Shown here piece by piece: positions 22,391-31,256 of a stretch of 64,000 nt of DNA; position 1 is the first letter of the stretch; each line of letters opens with the position of its first letter. Source of the DNA: Ferrovibrio sp. MS7 (GTDB lineage: Bacteria > Pseudomonadota > Alphaproteobacteria > Ferrovibrionales > Ferrovibrionaceae); contig NZ_JBBKBA010000001.1 of assembly GCF_038404985.1 (NCBI RefSeq), positions 834,001 through 898,000 on the forward strand. Reading direction: 5' to 3'. The notes below the pieces were generated by a model, which did no database searches, was not told the origin of the DNA, and saw only the letters and a program-made list of their open reading frames with translations. The translations under genes were made by a program, and so were the position numbers.

Positions 22391-24535
22391 TCAGAAGCCG
22401 CTTTCGCGCAGCAGCACGGCGACAGTCTGGTCAAACAGACGGCGAGCAAAGCTCTGCGCCGGGGCCTCGGCCAGCACGGTGCCGCGCAAGCTGCGCTCGA
22501 TACCTTCCAGCTTGCCTTCCGGCACCAGCACCACACGATAGAGGCCATGGCTCGGCCGTTCGCGGCCATCGGCTTCCTTGCGTGCCGGCAAGGGTCCGCC
22601 ATGCAGGCTGCTCAGTGCCAGCACGTCGATGCTGTCGAGCGTGCCGGCGGCGATCTCGCTGACCCGCAGCGGGAAACTCTCGGCGGCATTGTCGAGCGGC
22701 ACGAAGCGCGCCGCCGCACCGGGTTCGAGGCGCCGGATATCGGTTTCATCCAGATAAGCCACGGCTTCGATGCGCTGGCGGTCGGCGAGCAGCAGCAAGG
22801 GCTGGCGCGGCTCCACCCACAGGCCGGGGCGCAAGCCCTTCAAAATCTCCACCACGCTGCCGTCCACATTGGCGCGCAGCAGCAAGCGGCCGCGCAGTTC
22901 TTCCAGGCCGGCGCGGCGTCGCTCCAGGCTGGCGCGCTGTTCACGCAAAACCGGCATCTGGCGCCGCACATCCGGGCTGGCGGCGGCGCGGGCGATCTGC
23001 AGGTCCAGGATGGCGATGCGCTGCTGCGTGAGTATCAGGTCATGATCGAGGTCCGGTGCCGCCAGCCGCAACAGCGGCGTGCCAGCCACGACGCGCTGCT
23101 CGCGTTCAATCAGCACTTCCTCCACCCGGCCGCTCACTGGTGCATAGGCCATGGCATATTCCGAGGCGCGCAGCATCGCCGGCATCGTCACTTCGCCGCG
23201 CCACGGCGTGATGAAGGCGGCAAGGCCAATGCCGGCCAGCAGCAGAGTGGCGAGCAGCCGCCGGTTCGGCCGCAGCAGGCGGCGCTGCTGCCACCAGGCG
23301 CGCATCTCGGTCCAGATCGGGCGCAGGATGAACCATACGACCTCGACCACGAACAGCAGAATGCCGAGCAGCTTGAAGAAGAAATAGTAGACCAAAGCCG
23401 CGATGCCGATGAACAGGATCAGGCGGTAGACCCAGGTGATATAGGCATAGGCGATCAGCAGCTTCTGCCGGCGCGGCGGAAAGACTTCCGGCGGCGCCAG
23501 GCCGAGGCCGAACAAGGTTTCGCGCAAATGCCATCGTGCCAGGGCGAAGGCGCGCTCCTGCAGATTCTCAACCCCGAGCCAGTCGGCCAGCAGGTAATAG
23601 CCGTCGAAGCGCATGAACGGGCTGGCATTGATCGCCACCGTGGCGATGAAGCTCACCGCCGCCAGGCTGAAGGCGACCGAGCGCAGCGGACCTTCGGGCA
23701 GCAGGCTCCAGGCCAGCAGCGCGAAAGCCGCCAGGCTGCCTTCCGCCATCATGCCGGCGGCGCCGATCAGCAGGCGCGGACGGCGCTCGGTCAGCCGCCA
23801 GGCATCGGTGACATCGGTATAGAGGACGGGATAGAGCACCATGAAGGCGATGCCCATGCTGGGCACGCGGCAGCCCTGGCGCTTGGCCATCAGGGCATGT
23901 CCCATCTCATGGATGCTCTTGGCCAGGCCGAGCGCGATGCCGAAATAGAGCAGGCCCTGCCAGCTCGCCATGTCAGGCAAGGTGGCCCAGAACTGGTCCC
24001 ATTGCCGGCTGGCGAGATAGAGCCCGAGCAGGGCGATGCCGGCGATGATCAGCGCGGCGCCACGGCTGAACAGGAAATCCAGCTTCGGCGCCAGTTGGCT
24101 GAGAAACTTATCCGGCCGTAGCAAAGGCATGCGGATGAACAGGTAATTATGCAGCAGCCAGGTGGCCCAATGATGGCGCTGCGCCGCGCGTGCCTGCACC
24201 AGCTTGGTGATGCCGCCGCTATCCTCGCGCCGCAGCAGGTTGTTGCCATCCAGGAAACGCAGCATGGCTTCCAGGCGGTCGCCGGCCAGGGGACGACCAA
24301 GCTGCGTCGCGGCGGCGCTCAGCACCGCCATCGCCTCGCCGCGCTGCCAATGGCGCAGCAGCGCGAAGGCTTCGGCGCCGATACGGTAATAGCGGTTGCG
24401 CACCGGATCGTGGATGGTCCAGGTCGGGCCGCCATTTTCCGCTGCCGGGCCGGGCAGCAGGCTGAGATCGTCGCGCAGCCGCGGCAAGACTTGTGCGGGC
24501 GCTGCCCCTGGGGCGGAGAGGGCGGCGGCCTGCAT
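22391..24535 (-). CDS. PqqD-like / M50 metalloprotease / HlyD fusion membrane protein
   Basis: A 714-residue polytopic protein with three parts. About residues 15-105 look like a PqqD-type winged domain. About 155-445 are membrane helices carrying the M50 site HEMGH (209-213) and the second motif NASPFMRFDG (303-312), whose Asp is the third zinc ligand. About 470-714 form an HlyD/biotinyl-lipoyl adaptor starting AYAPVSGRVEEVLIEREQ, with a coiled coil. It starts one base after the stop of the GAF-like/HlyD gene. No ABC or RND transporter or TolC gene lies nearby. The family is known beside exporters of peptides or large proteins, but its function is not settled. Confidence 0.75.
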   Translation of the reverse strand: MQAAALSAPGAAPAQVLPRLRDDLSLLPGPAAENGGPTWTIHDPVRNRYYRIGAEAFALLRHWQRGEAMAVLSAAATQLGRPLAGDRLEAMLRFLDGNNLLRREDSGGITKLVQARAAQRHHWATWLLHNYLFIRMPLLRPDKFLSQLAPKLDFLFSRGAALIIAGIALLGLYLASRQWDQFWATLPDMASWQGLLYFGIALGLAKSIHEMGHALMAKRQGCRVPSMGIAFMVLYPVLYTDVTDAWRLTERRPRLLIGAAGMMAEGSLAAFALLAWSLLPEGPLRSVAFSLAAVSFIATVAINASPFMRFDGYYLLADWLGVENLQERAFALARWHLRETLFGLGLAPPEVFPPRRQKLLIAYAYITWVYRLILFIGIAALVYYFFFKLLGILLFVVEVVWFILRPIWTEMRAWWQQRRLLRPNRRLLATLLLAGIGLAAFITPWRGEVTMPAMLRASEYAMAYAPVSGRVEEVLIEREQRVVAGTPLLRLAAPDLDHDLILTQQRIAILDLQIARAAASPDVRRQMPVLREQRASLERRRAGLEELRGRLLLRANVDGSVVEILKGLRPGLWVEPRQPLLLLADRQRIEAVAYLDETDIRRLEPGAAARFVPLDNAAESFPLRVSEIAAGTLDSIDVLALSSLHGGPLPARKEADGRERPSHGLYRVVLVPEGKLEGIERSLRGTVLAEAPAQSFARRLFDQTVAVLLRESGF

Positions 24536-24536
24536 C

Positions 24537-25916
24537 TCAGAAGCCGATCATTTGCCGCAAAGCCGCCGCCGGGCGGCGGAACAGATACAGCGCCAGCGGC
24601 ACCGGGCGGCCCTGGATCTTCGCCGTGCCGCGCAGCCCGAGGCGGGGCAATGCCGCGCCGGCGGGCAGCGCCAGATCGGCATTGACGCGGTAGGCAGCGA
24701 TATTGTCAGCGCCGACTTCCGGCTCGAAGGCGGCATCGCGCAAGGTTGCGTCGAGGGCTTTAAGCGGGTCGCTGTCGAGGAACATCTGTACGGCGGCACC
24801 GCTTTCCAGCGCCACCGCATCGGCGACGGGCAGCCGCGCTTCGATCTCGACCCGCGCCGGATCGGCGATGGTGAGAATGCGCATCCCGGTACTCACCGGG
24901 CGACCGAGCCAGTCATTGGCGCTGCGGAACACCGCCACGCCGTCACGCTCGGCTTTCACCTTGCTGCGTTCCAGCCGCGCCTGGGCGAATTGATGCTCGG
25001 TGGCGCGCAGGTTGGCTTGTGCGGTGAGCAGCGCGATCTGAGCGCCGGAGCGCGGATCGCCAAACGCGCCCTGCTGTGCGCTGCGCAATTCCGCCTGCGC
25101 CACGGCCAGTTCCTGCGCCGCCACTTCGGCGCGGGCGCGCAGGTCGGTATCCTCGAGATCAAGCAGCGGCTGGCCGGCGCGTACCGCCTCGTTCGGCCGC
25201 ACATGCAGCCGTGCCACCACGCCATCCAGCGGCGCCGTCACCAGGAAGGGATCGCGCGGCACGATTTCCGCAGGCGCCAGGGCCGATTGCCGCACCGGGA
25301 TGAAGCCGGCGGCGATGATCAGCGCCAGCACCAGCCATTGCAGTTTCGCGAAAGCCGGCCAGCCGCGCCGCCGCGCGATGCGCCCTTTGCGCTGCGCAAG
25401 CAGGGCCCAGGCATGGCCATAGGTTTCCGCCAGGCGCTCGGCCAGCACCATTTCCTCCGGACTCCAGGGCTGCTGGCGGGCCAGCCACAGCACGGCAATC
25501 GGCTGTGCCGCTTCGGTCGCCTCGGGCAGCGGCAGCGGCAGCCACAAGGCCTGCGCGGCGGAAAATTCCGCCCAATCGGCGGCCAGTTCGGGTGTCGTCT
25601 GGGTGGCGTTCAGGGTTTGCGTCTTCGCCGCATCGGGCTGGCGCAGGCGCTCCGCTGCAACCGTCTCCAGCCAGCGGATGAAGGGTGCATTACGCTCCAC
25701 ATCGGGTACGTCGGCGGCGGCCAGCACGCGCGGCATGCCGCTGGCCGGCCAGTCGAGCAGGGCAATCTGCGCCGCCGGCAGCAGGCTGCGGCTGCGGTTC
25801 ACCAGGATGAAGCGCAAAGCCTCCAGCGAGGCGGCGCGGCGCACCTCGCGCTCAAGCGTCAGCAGCGCCACCAAAGCTGCGGAAGGGGGGGCGGCAGAAG
25901 GCGTTTCCAGCTTCAT
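24537..25916 (-). CDS. GAF-like / HlyD membrane-fusion protein
   Basis: A 459-residue protein. About residues 15-175 form a cytoplasmic, GAF-like domain. One membrane helix follows (LQWLVLALIIAAGFIPV, about 193-209). Then comes a periplasmic HlyD adaptor with the half-lipoyl motif VTAPLDGVVARLHVRPNEAV, a coiled coil and a beta-barrel. It is first in a two-gene minus-strand operon with the M50/HlyD protein. The arrangement suggests a cytoplasmic sensor joined to an envelope conduit. The exported substrate is not apparent. Confidence 0.72.
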   Translation of the reverse strand: MKLETPSAAPPSAALVALLTLEREVRRAASLEALRFILVNRSRSLLPAAQIALLDWPASGMPRVLAAADVPDVERNAPFIRWLETVAAERLRQPDAAKTQTLNATQTTPELAADWAEFSAAQALWLPLPLPEATEAAQPIAVLWLARQQPWSPEEMVLAERLAETYGHAWALLAQRKGRIARRRGWPAFAKLQWLVLALIIAAGFIPVRQSALAPAEIVPRDPFLVTAPLDGVVARLHVRPNEAVRAGQPLLDLEDTDLRARAEVAAQELAVAQAELRSAQQGAFGDPRSGAQIALLTAQANLRATEHQFAQARLERSKVKAERDGVAVFRSANDWLGRPVSTGMRILTIADPARVEIEARLPVADAVALESGAAVQMFLDSDPLKALDATLRDAAFEPEVGADNIAAYRVNADLALPAGAALPRLGLRGTAKIQGRPVPLALYLFRRPAAALRQMIGF

Positions 25917-27499: not shown

Positions 27500-28030
27500 A
27501 TGGCCAAACCGACGCTTATTGATCGCGCCCGGCATTTTGGCGCGGAAGACATCATCGTTTCCAAAACCGATCCGCAGGGCCGCATTACCTATGCTAATGA
27601 TGTGTTCTGCCGTGTCGGCGCCTACAGCGTGCCGGAACTGATCGGCAAGCCGCATGCGATTCTGCGCCATCCCGACATGCCGCGCTGCGTCTTCAAGCTG
27701 CTCTGGCAGCGTATCAAGGCTGGCGAGGAAATCTTCGCCTATGTGAAGAACCTGGCCAAGACCGGCGAATACTACTGGGTGCTGGCGCATGTGACGCCGG
27801 ATATCGGCCCCGATGGCGCCATCACCGGCTATCACTCCAACCGCCGCGCGCCGCATGACAGCGCGATTCAGGTGATCGAGCCGGTCTATGCCGCTTTGCT
27901 GGCCGAGGAAGCCAGGCATGACGACCGCAATGCGGCGATTCAGGCCGGCACGGCGTTGCTTGAGGCGACGCTGGCCAAGGCCGGCAAGAGCTACGACGAA
28001 TTCATCTTCAGCATCACGCCTGAGGCCTGA
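27500..28030 (+). CDS. PAS-domain sensor protein, Aer-like
   Basis: A 176-residue cytoplasmic protein. Residues ~15-125 form an Aer-type PAS domain (VSKTDPQGRITYANDVFCRV, then GKPHAILRHPDMPR and FAYVKNLAKTGEYYWV), the version that binds FAD in the aerotaxis receptor Aer. The remaining helix may dock on the partner. The chemotaxis transducer gene begins 3 bp after the stop, so sensor and signalling module look like two halves of a split Aer. The FNR box upstream fits oxygen control. Confidence 0.88.
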   Translation: MAKPTLIDRARHFGAEDIIVSKTDPQGRITYANDVFCRVGAYSVPELIGKPHAILRHPDMPRCVFKLLWQRIKAGEEIFAYVKNLAKTGEYYWVLAHVTPDIGPDGAITGYHSNRRAPHDSAIQVIEPVYAALLAEEARHDDRNAAIQAGTALLEATLAKAGKSYDEFIFSITPEA

Positions 28031-28033
28031 GCC

Positions 28034-29257
28034 ATGTTCAGCTTCCGCAAATACCGACTGATGGAACAGGCGCTGCAGGACCTCGATGCCGTGGCTCGCC
28101 GTGTTGCGATGGGCGATTTCTCTGCCCGCCTGGTGCATACCGAAGCCTATGGCGAATATTCGCCGACCCTGGTGGCGTTCAACCGCGCGCTCGATCTCGC
28201 CGATGCTTATTTGCGCGAATCCCAGGCCTCTTTGCGCTATGCCGCTGCCGGCAAGTATTTCCGCCCCTTCCTGGTGCGTGGCATGGCGGGCGATTTCCGC
28301 CGTGGCGCCGAGCAGATCAACGCCGCGCGCCGCGCCATGCAGGCCAAGGCCGAGGAAGCGGCGCGGCTGGAACTGGCAGTGGAGAGCGAACGGCGCGAAG
28401 CCGAAATCCGCGCCCGCGCCGAGCGCGAAAAGCTGGCGCGTGAATTCGAGGCCGGCGTGATGGCGGTGGTAGAATCCGTGCAGAGCACCAGCGGTCAGCT
28501 TGCCGGCCATGCCGATCAGCTTGCCAGCGACACCCGCGAAGCCGCCACAGCCGGCGCGCAAGCCGTCAGCGCTGCCGACCAGGCGACGCAGAACACCCAG
28601 GCGATTGCCGCCGCCGCCGAGGAATTGTCGGCGACGGTGCAGGAAGTGGCGCAGCAGGTGCGGTCATCGCGCGAGGCCAGCAAGAGTGTCGCCAGCGAGG
28701 TCGGTCATGCTTCCGAAGCGGTGGCGCAGCTTGAAGTGGCCAACCGCAAGATCGACGAGGTGGTGGAATTCATCCGCTCGGTGGCGTTCCAGACCAATCT
28801 GCTGGCGCTGAATGCGTCAGTGGAGGCGGCGCGCGCCGGTGAGGCCGGCAAGGGCTTTGCCGTCGTGGCGCAGGAAGTGCGCAGCCTGGCGCAGAAAACC
28901 ACCGAGGCGGCGAAGGATATCGCGCATCAGATCAGCGCCATCCAGAATGCCTCGGCGCTTACCGTGCGTTCCATCGCGGTGATCCAGGAGCAATCGGCAA
29001 GCCTGGATGGCCGGGTCGGCGCGATCTACGATTCCACCCAGGAACAAGCCGCCGCCACCAGCGACATCTCGGGCAATATTCAGGAAGCGGCGGCCCGCAC
29101 CGAAAGCGTCGCCAGCAACATCCAGCATATCTCCCAGAGCATCGAACGGTCCGGCGGCGTGGCCGAGGAAGTGTCGCAGGGCGCGGCGCATCTGCAGAGC
29201 CAGGCAAGCCTGCTGGCCGATCAGGTGGCGGCGTTCCTGAAGTCGATCCGGGCTTAG
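28034..29257 (+). CDS. Soluble methyl-accepting chemotaxis protein
   Basis: A 407-residue cytoplasmic chemotaxis transducer with no membrane segment. The N-terminal ~110 residues form a helical, PAS/HAMP-adjacent region; the rest is a long coiled coil. The highly conserved hairpin tip is [20 protein letters not shown] followed by [20 protein letters not shown], where CheA and CheW bind. It is translated right after the Aer-like PAS protein and probably receives its redox signal. Confidence 0.9.
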
Positions 29258-30023: not shown

Positions 30024-31256
30024 ATGACCGCCCGGCTGCCGCCGCAAACTGTCGTGCACGCGCTTTCGCGCCACGCCGCCTATCTTTCCGGGCGACCGGG
30101 CGGCGAGCGCCTGCAGCGCCGCAACGATGATTTCTCCGGCCTCGATCTCGGCGGCGCCATTCTCGACGATGCCATCCTGCCCGGCTGCATCTTCACCGAT
30201 GCGGCGCTGAATTCGGCGCAGTTCGTGCGCGCCGATCTGTTCGGCAGCGACTTCACCCGCGCCGACCTCACCCGCACCATGTTCGACAAGGCGGACCTGC
30301 GCGGTGCCAATTTCCTCATGTCGATCCTGCGCCAGACCTCGTTCCGCCAGGCCGACCTGCGCGCCGGCCAGATCCTGCGCCACACCACCGATGGCAAGGA
30401 AGTGGCCGAGACCGTGCCGGTGAACATGAGCGGCGCCAATCTCGAGGATGCCAATCTCAAGAGCGCCTATCTTGACCATGCCAACCTGACCAATGCTTCC
30501 GCCGTCGGCGCCAGCTTCGCCGCCGCCAACCTGTTCGCGGTCAACCTCACCGGCGCCGATCTCACCAACGCCGATTTCGCCGGCGCCAAGCTGAAGGAAG
30601 CCAGTTTTGTCGGCGCCAAGCTGGATGGCGCGCGCTTCACCGGCGCTGATCTGCGCGGCGCCAATCTGCGCAGCGTCGATCTCAGCACCGCCGATACCAC
30701 CGGCGCCAACCTGCAGGGTGCGATCCATCGCGGCGCCTCGGCGCAGCTTCCCCCCGATGTCGAAGCCAAGCTCAAGGGCCATGGCCGCTGGATCGTTTCC
30801 AATGGTGCAGAGGGCGAGCGCGCGGTGTTCAGCAAGATGAAGCTGCAGGGGCTGGATTTCTCGAGCTGCGATCTGCGCGCCGCCGTTTTCCACGAAACCA
30901 ATCTCGCTGGCGCCTTCTTCACCCGCAGCCAGTTGATGTTCGCCAGTTTCATCGGCGCCGATCTACGCAAGGCGAATTTCGACCAGGCGGATTGCGGCGG
31001 CGTCAATTTCTCCGCGGCGATATTGGCCGGCGCCGCCTTTCGTGGCACCCAGCTTGTTGGCGTGCCGATCTACAATGCGCTGAACCAGCGCACCGGCAAG
31101 GTGGTGTTCCCGCGCTTCGATACCAGCGACCTCACCGGGGCCGACCTGCGCGGCGCGGTGATCGAAGGCGTGGATTTCTCAAGCAGCATCTTCGCCAAGG
31201 TCAACATTGCCGGCACCGATCTGCGGCAATGTATCGGCATGCAGGCAAAACGCTGA
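30024..31256 (+). CDS. Pentapeptide-repeat protein
   Basis: A 410-residue protein built of A(D/N)Lxx repeats forming a right-handed beta-helix. One block covers about residues 35-240 (ADLFGSDFTRADLTRTMFDK type). A short non-repeat linker at ~240-270 includes LKGHGRWIVSNG, and a second block covers ~275-405. There is no signal peptide. Pentapeptide proteins include DNA mimics such as Qnr and unknown scaffolds; nothing here assigns a role. The PAS_5 gene follows after 13 bp, so the two may be co-transcribed. Confidence 0.88.
   Translation: MTARLPPQTVVHALSRHAAYLSGRPGGERLQRRNDDFSGLDLGGAILDDAILPGCIFTDAALNSAQFVRADLFGSDFTRADLTRTMFDKADLRGANFLMSILRQTSFRQADLRAGQILRHTTDGKEVAETVPVNMSGANLEDANLKSAYLDHANLTNASAVGASFAAANLFAVNLTGADLTNADFAGAKLKEASFVGAKLDGARFTGADLRGANLRSVDLSTADTTGANLQGAIHRGASAQLPPDVEAKLKGHGRWIVSNGAEGERAVFSKMKLQGLDFSSCDLRAAVFHETNLAGAFFTRSQLMFASFIGADLRKANFDQADCGGVNFSAAILAGAAFRGTQLVGVPIYNALNQRTGKVVFPRFDTSDLTGADLRGAVIEGVDFSSSIFAKVNIAGTDLRQCIGMQAKR

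Follow-up and report, generated by a model that had tools for sequence, protein, structure and literature searches.

A GAF/RRE-M50 adaptor pair of Ferrovibrio sp. MS7 as a probable part of a widespread five-gene module with giant LExR proteins

The stretch of DNA considered here (64,000 nucleotides of Ferrovibrio sp. MS7, contig NZ_JBBKBA010000001.1, positions 834,001 to 898,000; hereafter, the window) encodes two adjoining proteins ending in periplasmic adaptor domains of the HlyD/MacA type. In the first (gene A) the adaptor is preceded by a GAF domain, and in the second (gene B) by an M50 intramembrane protease and a PqqD-like domain of the kind known as the recognition element (RRE) of ribosomally synthesized and post-translationally modified peptides (RiPPs). 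We hold with high confidence that A and B belong to a conserved five-gene module and do not form a self-standing orphan. The module, which is widespread and apparently undescribed, further comprises a TolC-type channel, a short HlyD protein and a giant protein, here termed an LExR protein after a motif at its N-terminus. On balance, we favor a mechanism in which the pair forms the inner-membrane half of this envelope module and serves the giant LExR proteins, a reading that we consider reasonably probable as a whole.

Conservation of the module

Eighty homologous loci were retained out of at least 593 matched stretches in the genome collection, 582 of 593 of which encode a relative. When the genes of these loci were clustered, five families recurred far above all others, namely B (80 loci), A (70), the giant (62), the short HlyD of approximately 260 amino acids (58) and the TolC-type channel (49), with Pfam assigning the latter two to HlyD_3 and OEP, respectively. 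Profiles placed all five genes on the same strand at 44 of the 80 loci, and four of the five at a further 20. The complete loci mostly follow the order giant-TolC-short HlyD-A-B (28 of 44), while 11 read TolC-short HlyD-A-B-giant, four read short HlyD-A-B-giant-TolC and one is ordered differently. Where at least 7 kb precede B (60 loci), A is found at all 60, the short HlyD at 57, the giant at 53 (by a loose criterion) and TolC at 46; some Pseudomonas loci have TolC on the far side of the giant. Homologues are spread over Azospirillum, Pseudomonas, Nitrospira, Methylomonas, Magnetococcales, Pelagibacteraceae and others.

A and B stand alone at five of the 80 loci. Three of these (L051, L070 and L105) begin or end nearby, and at the two from Skermanella (L109 and L127) the pair is isolated over 8-10 kb on either side. 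Both Skermanella genomes encode a giant with a DUF4347 domain elsewhere.

The window pair scores 538 (A) and 940.6 bits (B) against the profiles of the module families and retains the same-strand order of GAF-HlyD followed by RRE-M50-HlyD, with a single base separating the stop codon of A from the ATG of B. A preliminary description, drawn from the letters of the window, had termed the pair an orphan. Locally this holds, as no ATP-binding cassette (ABC), resistance-nodulation-division (RND) or TolC gene adjoins the pair, which is flanked by alpha/beta hydrolase and sigma factor genes. The label itself does not survive the five-gene module seen at 44 loci and the presence, in the same genome, of partners of the same lineage.

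Additional genes accompany the module in some lineages. At Pseudomonas-type loci such as L075 (12229-13715), B and the giant are separated by genes for a GNAT acetyltransferase, a DUF6916 protein and a phage tail-collar-domain protein; at some others of this type (L101:13810-16423), a PMT_2-family mannosyltransferase and a sulfotransferase, which perhaps modify the giant, are encoded ahead of it instead. At the Nitrospira-type loci L074, L089 and L112, six further gene families recur on the opposite strand ahead of TolC.

A divided module in the window genome

The window genome contains a second pair, on contig C2, the B copies being 41% identical. The C2 module is complete and ordered giant-TolC-TAXI protein-short HlyD-A-B; the TAXI-type periplasmic binding protein between TolC and the short HlyD (L004:606-1583) matches TIGR02122 at E 1.4e-61. 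The window pair, at C1:856,391-859,916, is not adjoined by a giant, TolC or short HlyD gene. These three occur instead as a trio at C1:217,085-227,917, approximately 629 kb off, in the order giant (2765 amino acids)-TolC-short HlyD and with no A or B adjoining.

Four gene trees, inferred with FastTree (82, 79, 70 and 52 tips), relate the two sites. Window B (support 0.988), window A (0.997), the trio short HlyD (0.999) and the trio TolC (0.984) are each sister to L049, a locus from a Rhodospirillales genome with the five module genes in a row, and the C2 copies are placed elsewhere in all four trees. Because all four genes share this sister, the pair and the C1 trio are, on phylogenetic grounds, best read as the two halves of one ancestral module, and the giant, TolC and short HlyD of the trio are the likely partners of the window pair. 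The C1 and L049 giants match weakly; they differ in their repeats, and only part of the L049 giant lies within its stretch. The open reading frames (ORFs) of A, B and the trio are all intact, and the catalytic residues of B are kept.

Comparison of the flanks of the window pair with those of other loci returned weak matches only, while the matches to flanking DNA in congeners were scattered, with no clean empty site among the matches listed. Within the family, three of 18 genomes contain a B homologue. Two of these three homologues, one of them from a 72% complete genome of the same species, resemble the C2 copy in being 41% identical to window B, so that the window type of B is seen in one of 18 family genomes. 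Elsewhere in the window, we noted a pentapeptide-repeat protein of 410 amino acids at 30024-31256 (Pfam E 1.7e-62), as well as a PAS protein and an MCP-type chemotaxis protein, spaced four bases apart, at 27500-29257.

Domain anatomy of A and B

The features of both genes are collected in Table 1. The preliminary account of back-to-back GAF-like/HlyD and PqqD-like/M50/HlyD proteins is in agreement with the ORFs, the Pfam matches, the fold matches to GAF domains and MacA, and the PqqD profile, and the HEMGH zinc-protease motif that it had named lies at residues 209-213 of B.

Table 1. Features of the A/B pair, in window coordinates.
Feature	Position	Strand	Basis
Gene A (GAF domain, membrane helix, HlyD/MacA-type periplasmic adaptor; 459 aa)	25916-24537	minus	ORF list
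GAF-fold domain of A, residues 7-182	25371..25898	minus	fold match to solved GAF domains, Z about 15-16
Periplasmic adaptor part of A, residues ~207-445	24582..25298	minus	MacA fold match; Pfam HlyD_3, HlyD_D23
Gene B (RRE/PqqD-like domain, M50 intramembrane protease, HlyD/MacA-type adaptor; 714 aa)	24535-22391	minus	ORF list
RRE/PqqD-like domain of B, residues 38-101	24233..24424	minus	hhalign vs 28 PqqD domains
HEMGH zinc-protease motif of B, residues 209-213	23897..23911	minus	HExxH conserved in homologues
Second metal motif of B (NASPFMRFDGY), residues 303-313	23597..23629	minus	conservation among homologues
Periplasmic adaptor part of B, residues ~446-694	22454..23200	minus	MacA fold match; Pfam HlyD_3

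A GAF fold in A is apparent from its AlphaFold model (pLDDT 93.8), in which approximately residues 7-182 match solved GAF domains in a fold search at Z about 15-16. Residues 185-445 of the same model match MacA (Z 16.9), and Pfam HlyD_3 is matched at E 2.3e-20. The Pfam GAF model matches eight of 48 members of the A family, window A not among them.

In B, Pfam recognizes Peptidase_M50 (E 1.1e-7) and HlyD_3 (E 1.9e-11). A fold search with its AlphaFold model (pLDDT 89.3) returned matches to the adaptor part alone (residues 446-692 against MacA, Z 17.2), and so none that bear on the RRE or the M50 domain. Conservation speaks for the protease: HExxH is kept in all 80 B homologues and the second metal motif, under a strict pattern, in 76 of 80, while H209, E210, H213 and D311 are invariant across 56 aligned members, as are N303, G312 and Y313. 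B therefore features both the HExxH and the second metal-ligand motif of M50/site-2 proteases in its membrane helices. The homology of residues 38-101 to PqqD was detected with a profile of 28 PqqD domains (hhalign probability 94.8, E 5e-8), while each of eight control segments, taken from A and B, scored below 1%; the Pfam PqqD model matched none of the 56 B members. RRE domains bind leader peptides. That of B precedes the membrane helices, with the adaptor coming after them, and by analogy it should be cytosolic.

The giant proteins and their motif

Co-occurrence was assessed over 289 genomes of the class, in each of which three B candidates were scored, so that counts of B are lower bounds. 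B occurs in at least 13 of the 289 genomes and DUF4347 exceeds its Pfam cut-off in 20, with both present in 10 (Fisher p 5e-11). All three genomes that have B but lack DUF4347 are draft assemblies in 90-290 contigs; in G147 and G109 module genes are cut at contig ends, and G050 encodes an LExR-motif protein with other domains (DUF7948 and SBBP).

Every giant longer than 500 amino acids with an intact start (28 of 28, two of them from the window genome) carries an N-terminal LExRxxFD motif, consisting of L-E-x-R with D four residues on, mostly in the form LEPRxMFDAA, and an Ala-rich stretch comes next. A strict LE[PE]R form matched 18 of the 28, and the looser LExR...D form was used for later counts. 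ORFs of the giant cluster shorter than 500 amino acids were left out of this count; two of them, at L052 (403 amino acids) and L081 (336 amino acids), have an intact start and lack the motif. Both giants of the window genome combine DUF4347 with the LEPR motif, and one was matched by the NCBIfam LEPR-XLL model in a genome search. As a genome-wide probe, this model returned six of the 289 genomes, among which G000 and G050 hold LExR proteins and four were judged by eye to be chance or shadow-frame matches. At 24 positions it is too short, and hence unfit, for a census. One giant's frame (G028:C1:963645-964136, at L027) contains a TAG inside its DUF4347 match.

The motif is associated with B. 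Among 40 DUF4347 matches, it stands ahead of 12 of the 13 in genomes with B and of none of the 27 where B is absent (p 2e-9, with no correction for relatedness; three of the 27 lie below the Pfam cut-off). The sole exception is located inside a long open frame already holding a first DUF4347 domain. Counted by genome, the motif is present in 10 of 10 with B versus 0 of 13 without. Since it is retained where the following domain is not DUF4347, as in G050 and at L108 (RTX and cadherin domains), these sequence comparisons suggest that the motif goes with B more closely than DUF4347 does, again in counts uncorrected for relatedness.

Interpretation

The mechanism we favor would begin in the cytosol, where the N-terminal LExRxxFD of the giant would be bound by the RRE domain of B. 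The Ala-rich stretch after the motif would thereby be presented to the intramembrane M50 site, which may cut in or near it, trimming or releasing the giant. A conduit through the envelope would be formed or docked by TolC, the short HlyD and the adaptor domains of both A and B, and the GAF domain of A, on sensing a cytosolic ligand, may gate the process. Such logic would be akin to the control of LapA by LapD and LapG, executed with other proteins.

Several points weigh against this reading. Firstly, binding of the motif by the RRE, cleavage and gating by the GAF domain are steps that we infer, beside an anatomy, a distribution and a split of the module that were directly observed. Secondly, the link between motif and B could reflect shared descent of one DUF4347 subfamily. 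Thirdly, the evidence for cooperation between the separated pair and trio consists of the trees and the intact ORFs. Fourthly, the stretches around the giant in the Skermanella genome G290 yielded neither TolC nor a short HlyD, and in G289 the contig ends there. Finally, models of type I ABC exporters score over their cut-offs in genomes with B (TIGR01842 in eight of 13, the window genome included, and TIGR03375 in three of 13), so export by another system is possible.

The question of energy is closely related. No ABC, RND or major facilitator superfamily (MFS) partner recurs at the 80 loci, as gauged from motifs and, for large many-helix transporters, a crude helix count. An ORF with both ABC motifs occurs at eight of the loci; seven of these lie more than 3.7 kb from B, and the eighth, at L071 and 125 bp from B, is not exporter-like by eye. 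The module thus includes a TolC-type channel and periplasmic adaptors and lacks an energized inner-membrane transporter, although one outside it is possible. We tentatively put forward the further proposal of a secretion system of its own kind, in which the RRE-M50-adaptor protein would replace the ATP-driven transporter, read the LExRxxFD leader and pass or hold the giants via TolC under GAF control, with no dedicated ATPase.

A doubtful alternative is that the module acts as an anchor and release switch resembling the Lap system, with a type I ABC exporter encoded elsewhere secreting the giant C-terminus first and A and B holding, and later cutting, its N-terminus. The exporter matches noted above are in keeping with this, and a C-terminal stretch common to the giants (30 of 38, compared with 60 out of 1850 random windows, by a pattern made after the tails had been seen) would fit a C-terminal signal. 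A Vibrio LEPR-XLL giant has RTX domains at its C-terminus (PMC10868602), and LapA, according to the accessible part of PMC6890996, is held in a TolC-like subunit and freed by LapG under the control of LapD. The module, however, has a TolC and three adaptors of its own, yet its loci hold no ABC gene save the eight stray ORFs. Moreover, in five of the 13 genomes with B neither TIGR01842 nor TIGR03375 reaches its cut-off, a result that does not extend to the HlyB model TIGR01846, which was not searched for. G070 (100% complete) and G109 (99%) contain generic-scoring ABC proteins only, G028 and G050 contain high but sub-cut-off type I ABC matches, and G193 is 64% complete. A shared exporter encoded elsewhere is possible in many hosts and not evident in all.

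It appears improbable that rearrangement has left the window pair as the decaying remnant of a broken module, no longer working with the distant trio. The wide separation of pair and trio, the unrelated flanks and the occurrence of a close copy in just one of 18 family genomes could be taken for signs of decay, but the intact frames of A and B, the retained catalytic residues and the equally intact trio of the same lineage argue otherwise, as do the two Skermanella genomes, in which a pair standing alone likewise coexists with a DUF4347 giant encoded elsewhere.

The preliminary description had envisaged a conduit working on its own, which would sense a ligand and process or export a peptide. 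Taken as the processing and export of a small peptide, this notion recalls the RRE domain and M50 protease of daptide and epipeptide pathways, but it is highly unlikely here, as TolC, the short HlyD and the giant recur near homologues in place of any convincing small ORF. The latter result derives from 2248 ORFs of 20-90 amino acids that do not belong to the main genes and lie between 6 kb ahead of B and 4 kb behind it at the 80 loci; as candidates for small precursor peptides, the recurring groups (the largest spanning 14 loci) were rejected by eye as low-complexity or shadow frames. The broader portrayal of a poorly described protease-plus-adaptor conduit fits; the partners of the pair are conserved and uncharacterized. 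The concern that homologues might always stand beside a known exporter of established substrate, leaving the pair a mere displaced accessory, is not borne out, as no ABC exporter recurs.

Comparison with known systems

Several known systems and families share parts with the module. LEPR-XLL (NCBIfam NF012209) and DUF4347 (Pfam PF14252) name the motif and a domain of the giants, and no export route for them was found in the literature searched. A Vibrio giant with an N-terminal LEPR-XLL motif and C-terminal RTX and serralysin-type domains has been reported (PMC10868602); the motif was otherwise met in the literature only in a transcript listing. The published passages on DUF4347 that were accessible contain no description of such a module, and none of LEPR, M50 and DUF4347 occurs in the accessible part of PMC7730722. 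Among titles and abstract openings, a scope outside which most subscription papers fall, no such system was found in the literature combining M50 with HlyD, TolC, GAF, giant proteins or adhesins, nor, at the level of titles and abstract openings, in that on site-2 proteases with periplasmic adaptors and RiPP recognition elements.

In B, a pump adaptor and an intramembrane protease are combined with a leader-binding domain familiar from peptide biosynthesis, and the giants that accompany it rank among the largest surface proteins of bacteria. Such a combination points to a mode of export, or of regulated release, that was not found in the literature searched, and B is a candidate reader for the LEPR-XLL motif. 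How proteins of several thousand residues without a neighboring ABC exporter get to the surface is thereby made testable.

The best family match of B is the NCBIfam model NF041824 (daptide_HExxH), over residues 41-400 (E 5e-49); at 167.4 bits, B scores below the cut-off of 300. MpaP is named as the remover of daptide leaders and as an RRE-dependent intramembrane peptidase in the accessible part of PMC10036551. Like B, it joins an RRE to an M50 protease; unlike MpaP, B is fused to an adaptor, has no small precursor peptide gene nearby among the ORFs scanned, and is neighbored by TolC and the giant rather than by RiPP genes.

Type I secretion systems and MacAB-TolC pumps share with the module a TolC-type channel and MacA-like adaptors. 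The accessible part of PMC8277102 presents an energized inner-membrane transporter as a principal component of tripartite and type I systems, and it is this component that the module is missing.

The Lap system (the adhesin LapA, the protease LapG, the receptor LapD and the TolC-like LapE) is a parallel in composition, in that both comprise a giant, a TolC-type channel, a protease and a cytosolic sensor; in the accessible part of PMC6890996, the N-terminal region of the giant is the control point. The two differ in that no ABC exporter recurs in the module, that its protease is an intramembrane metalloprotease where Lap employs a periplasmic cysteine protease, that its sensor is a GAF domain in place of the GGDEF/EAL domains of LapD, and that protease and sensor are themselves adaptors.

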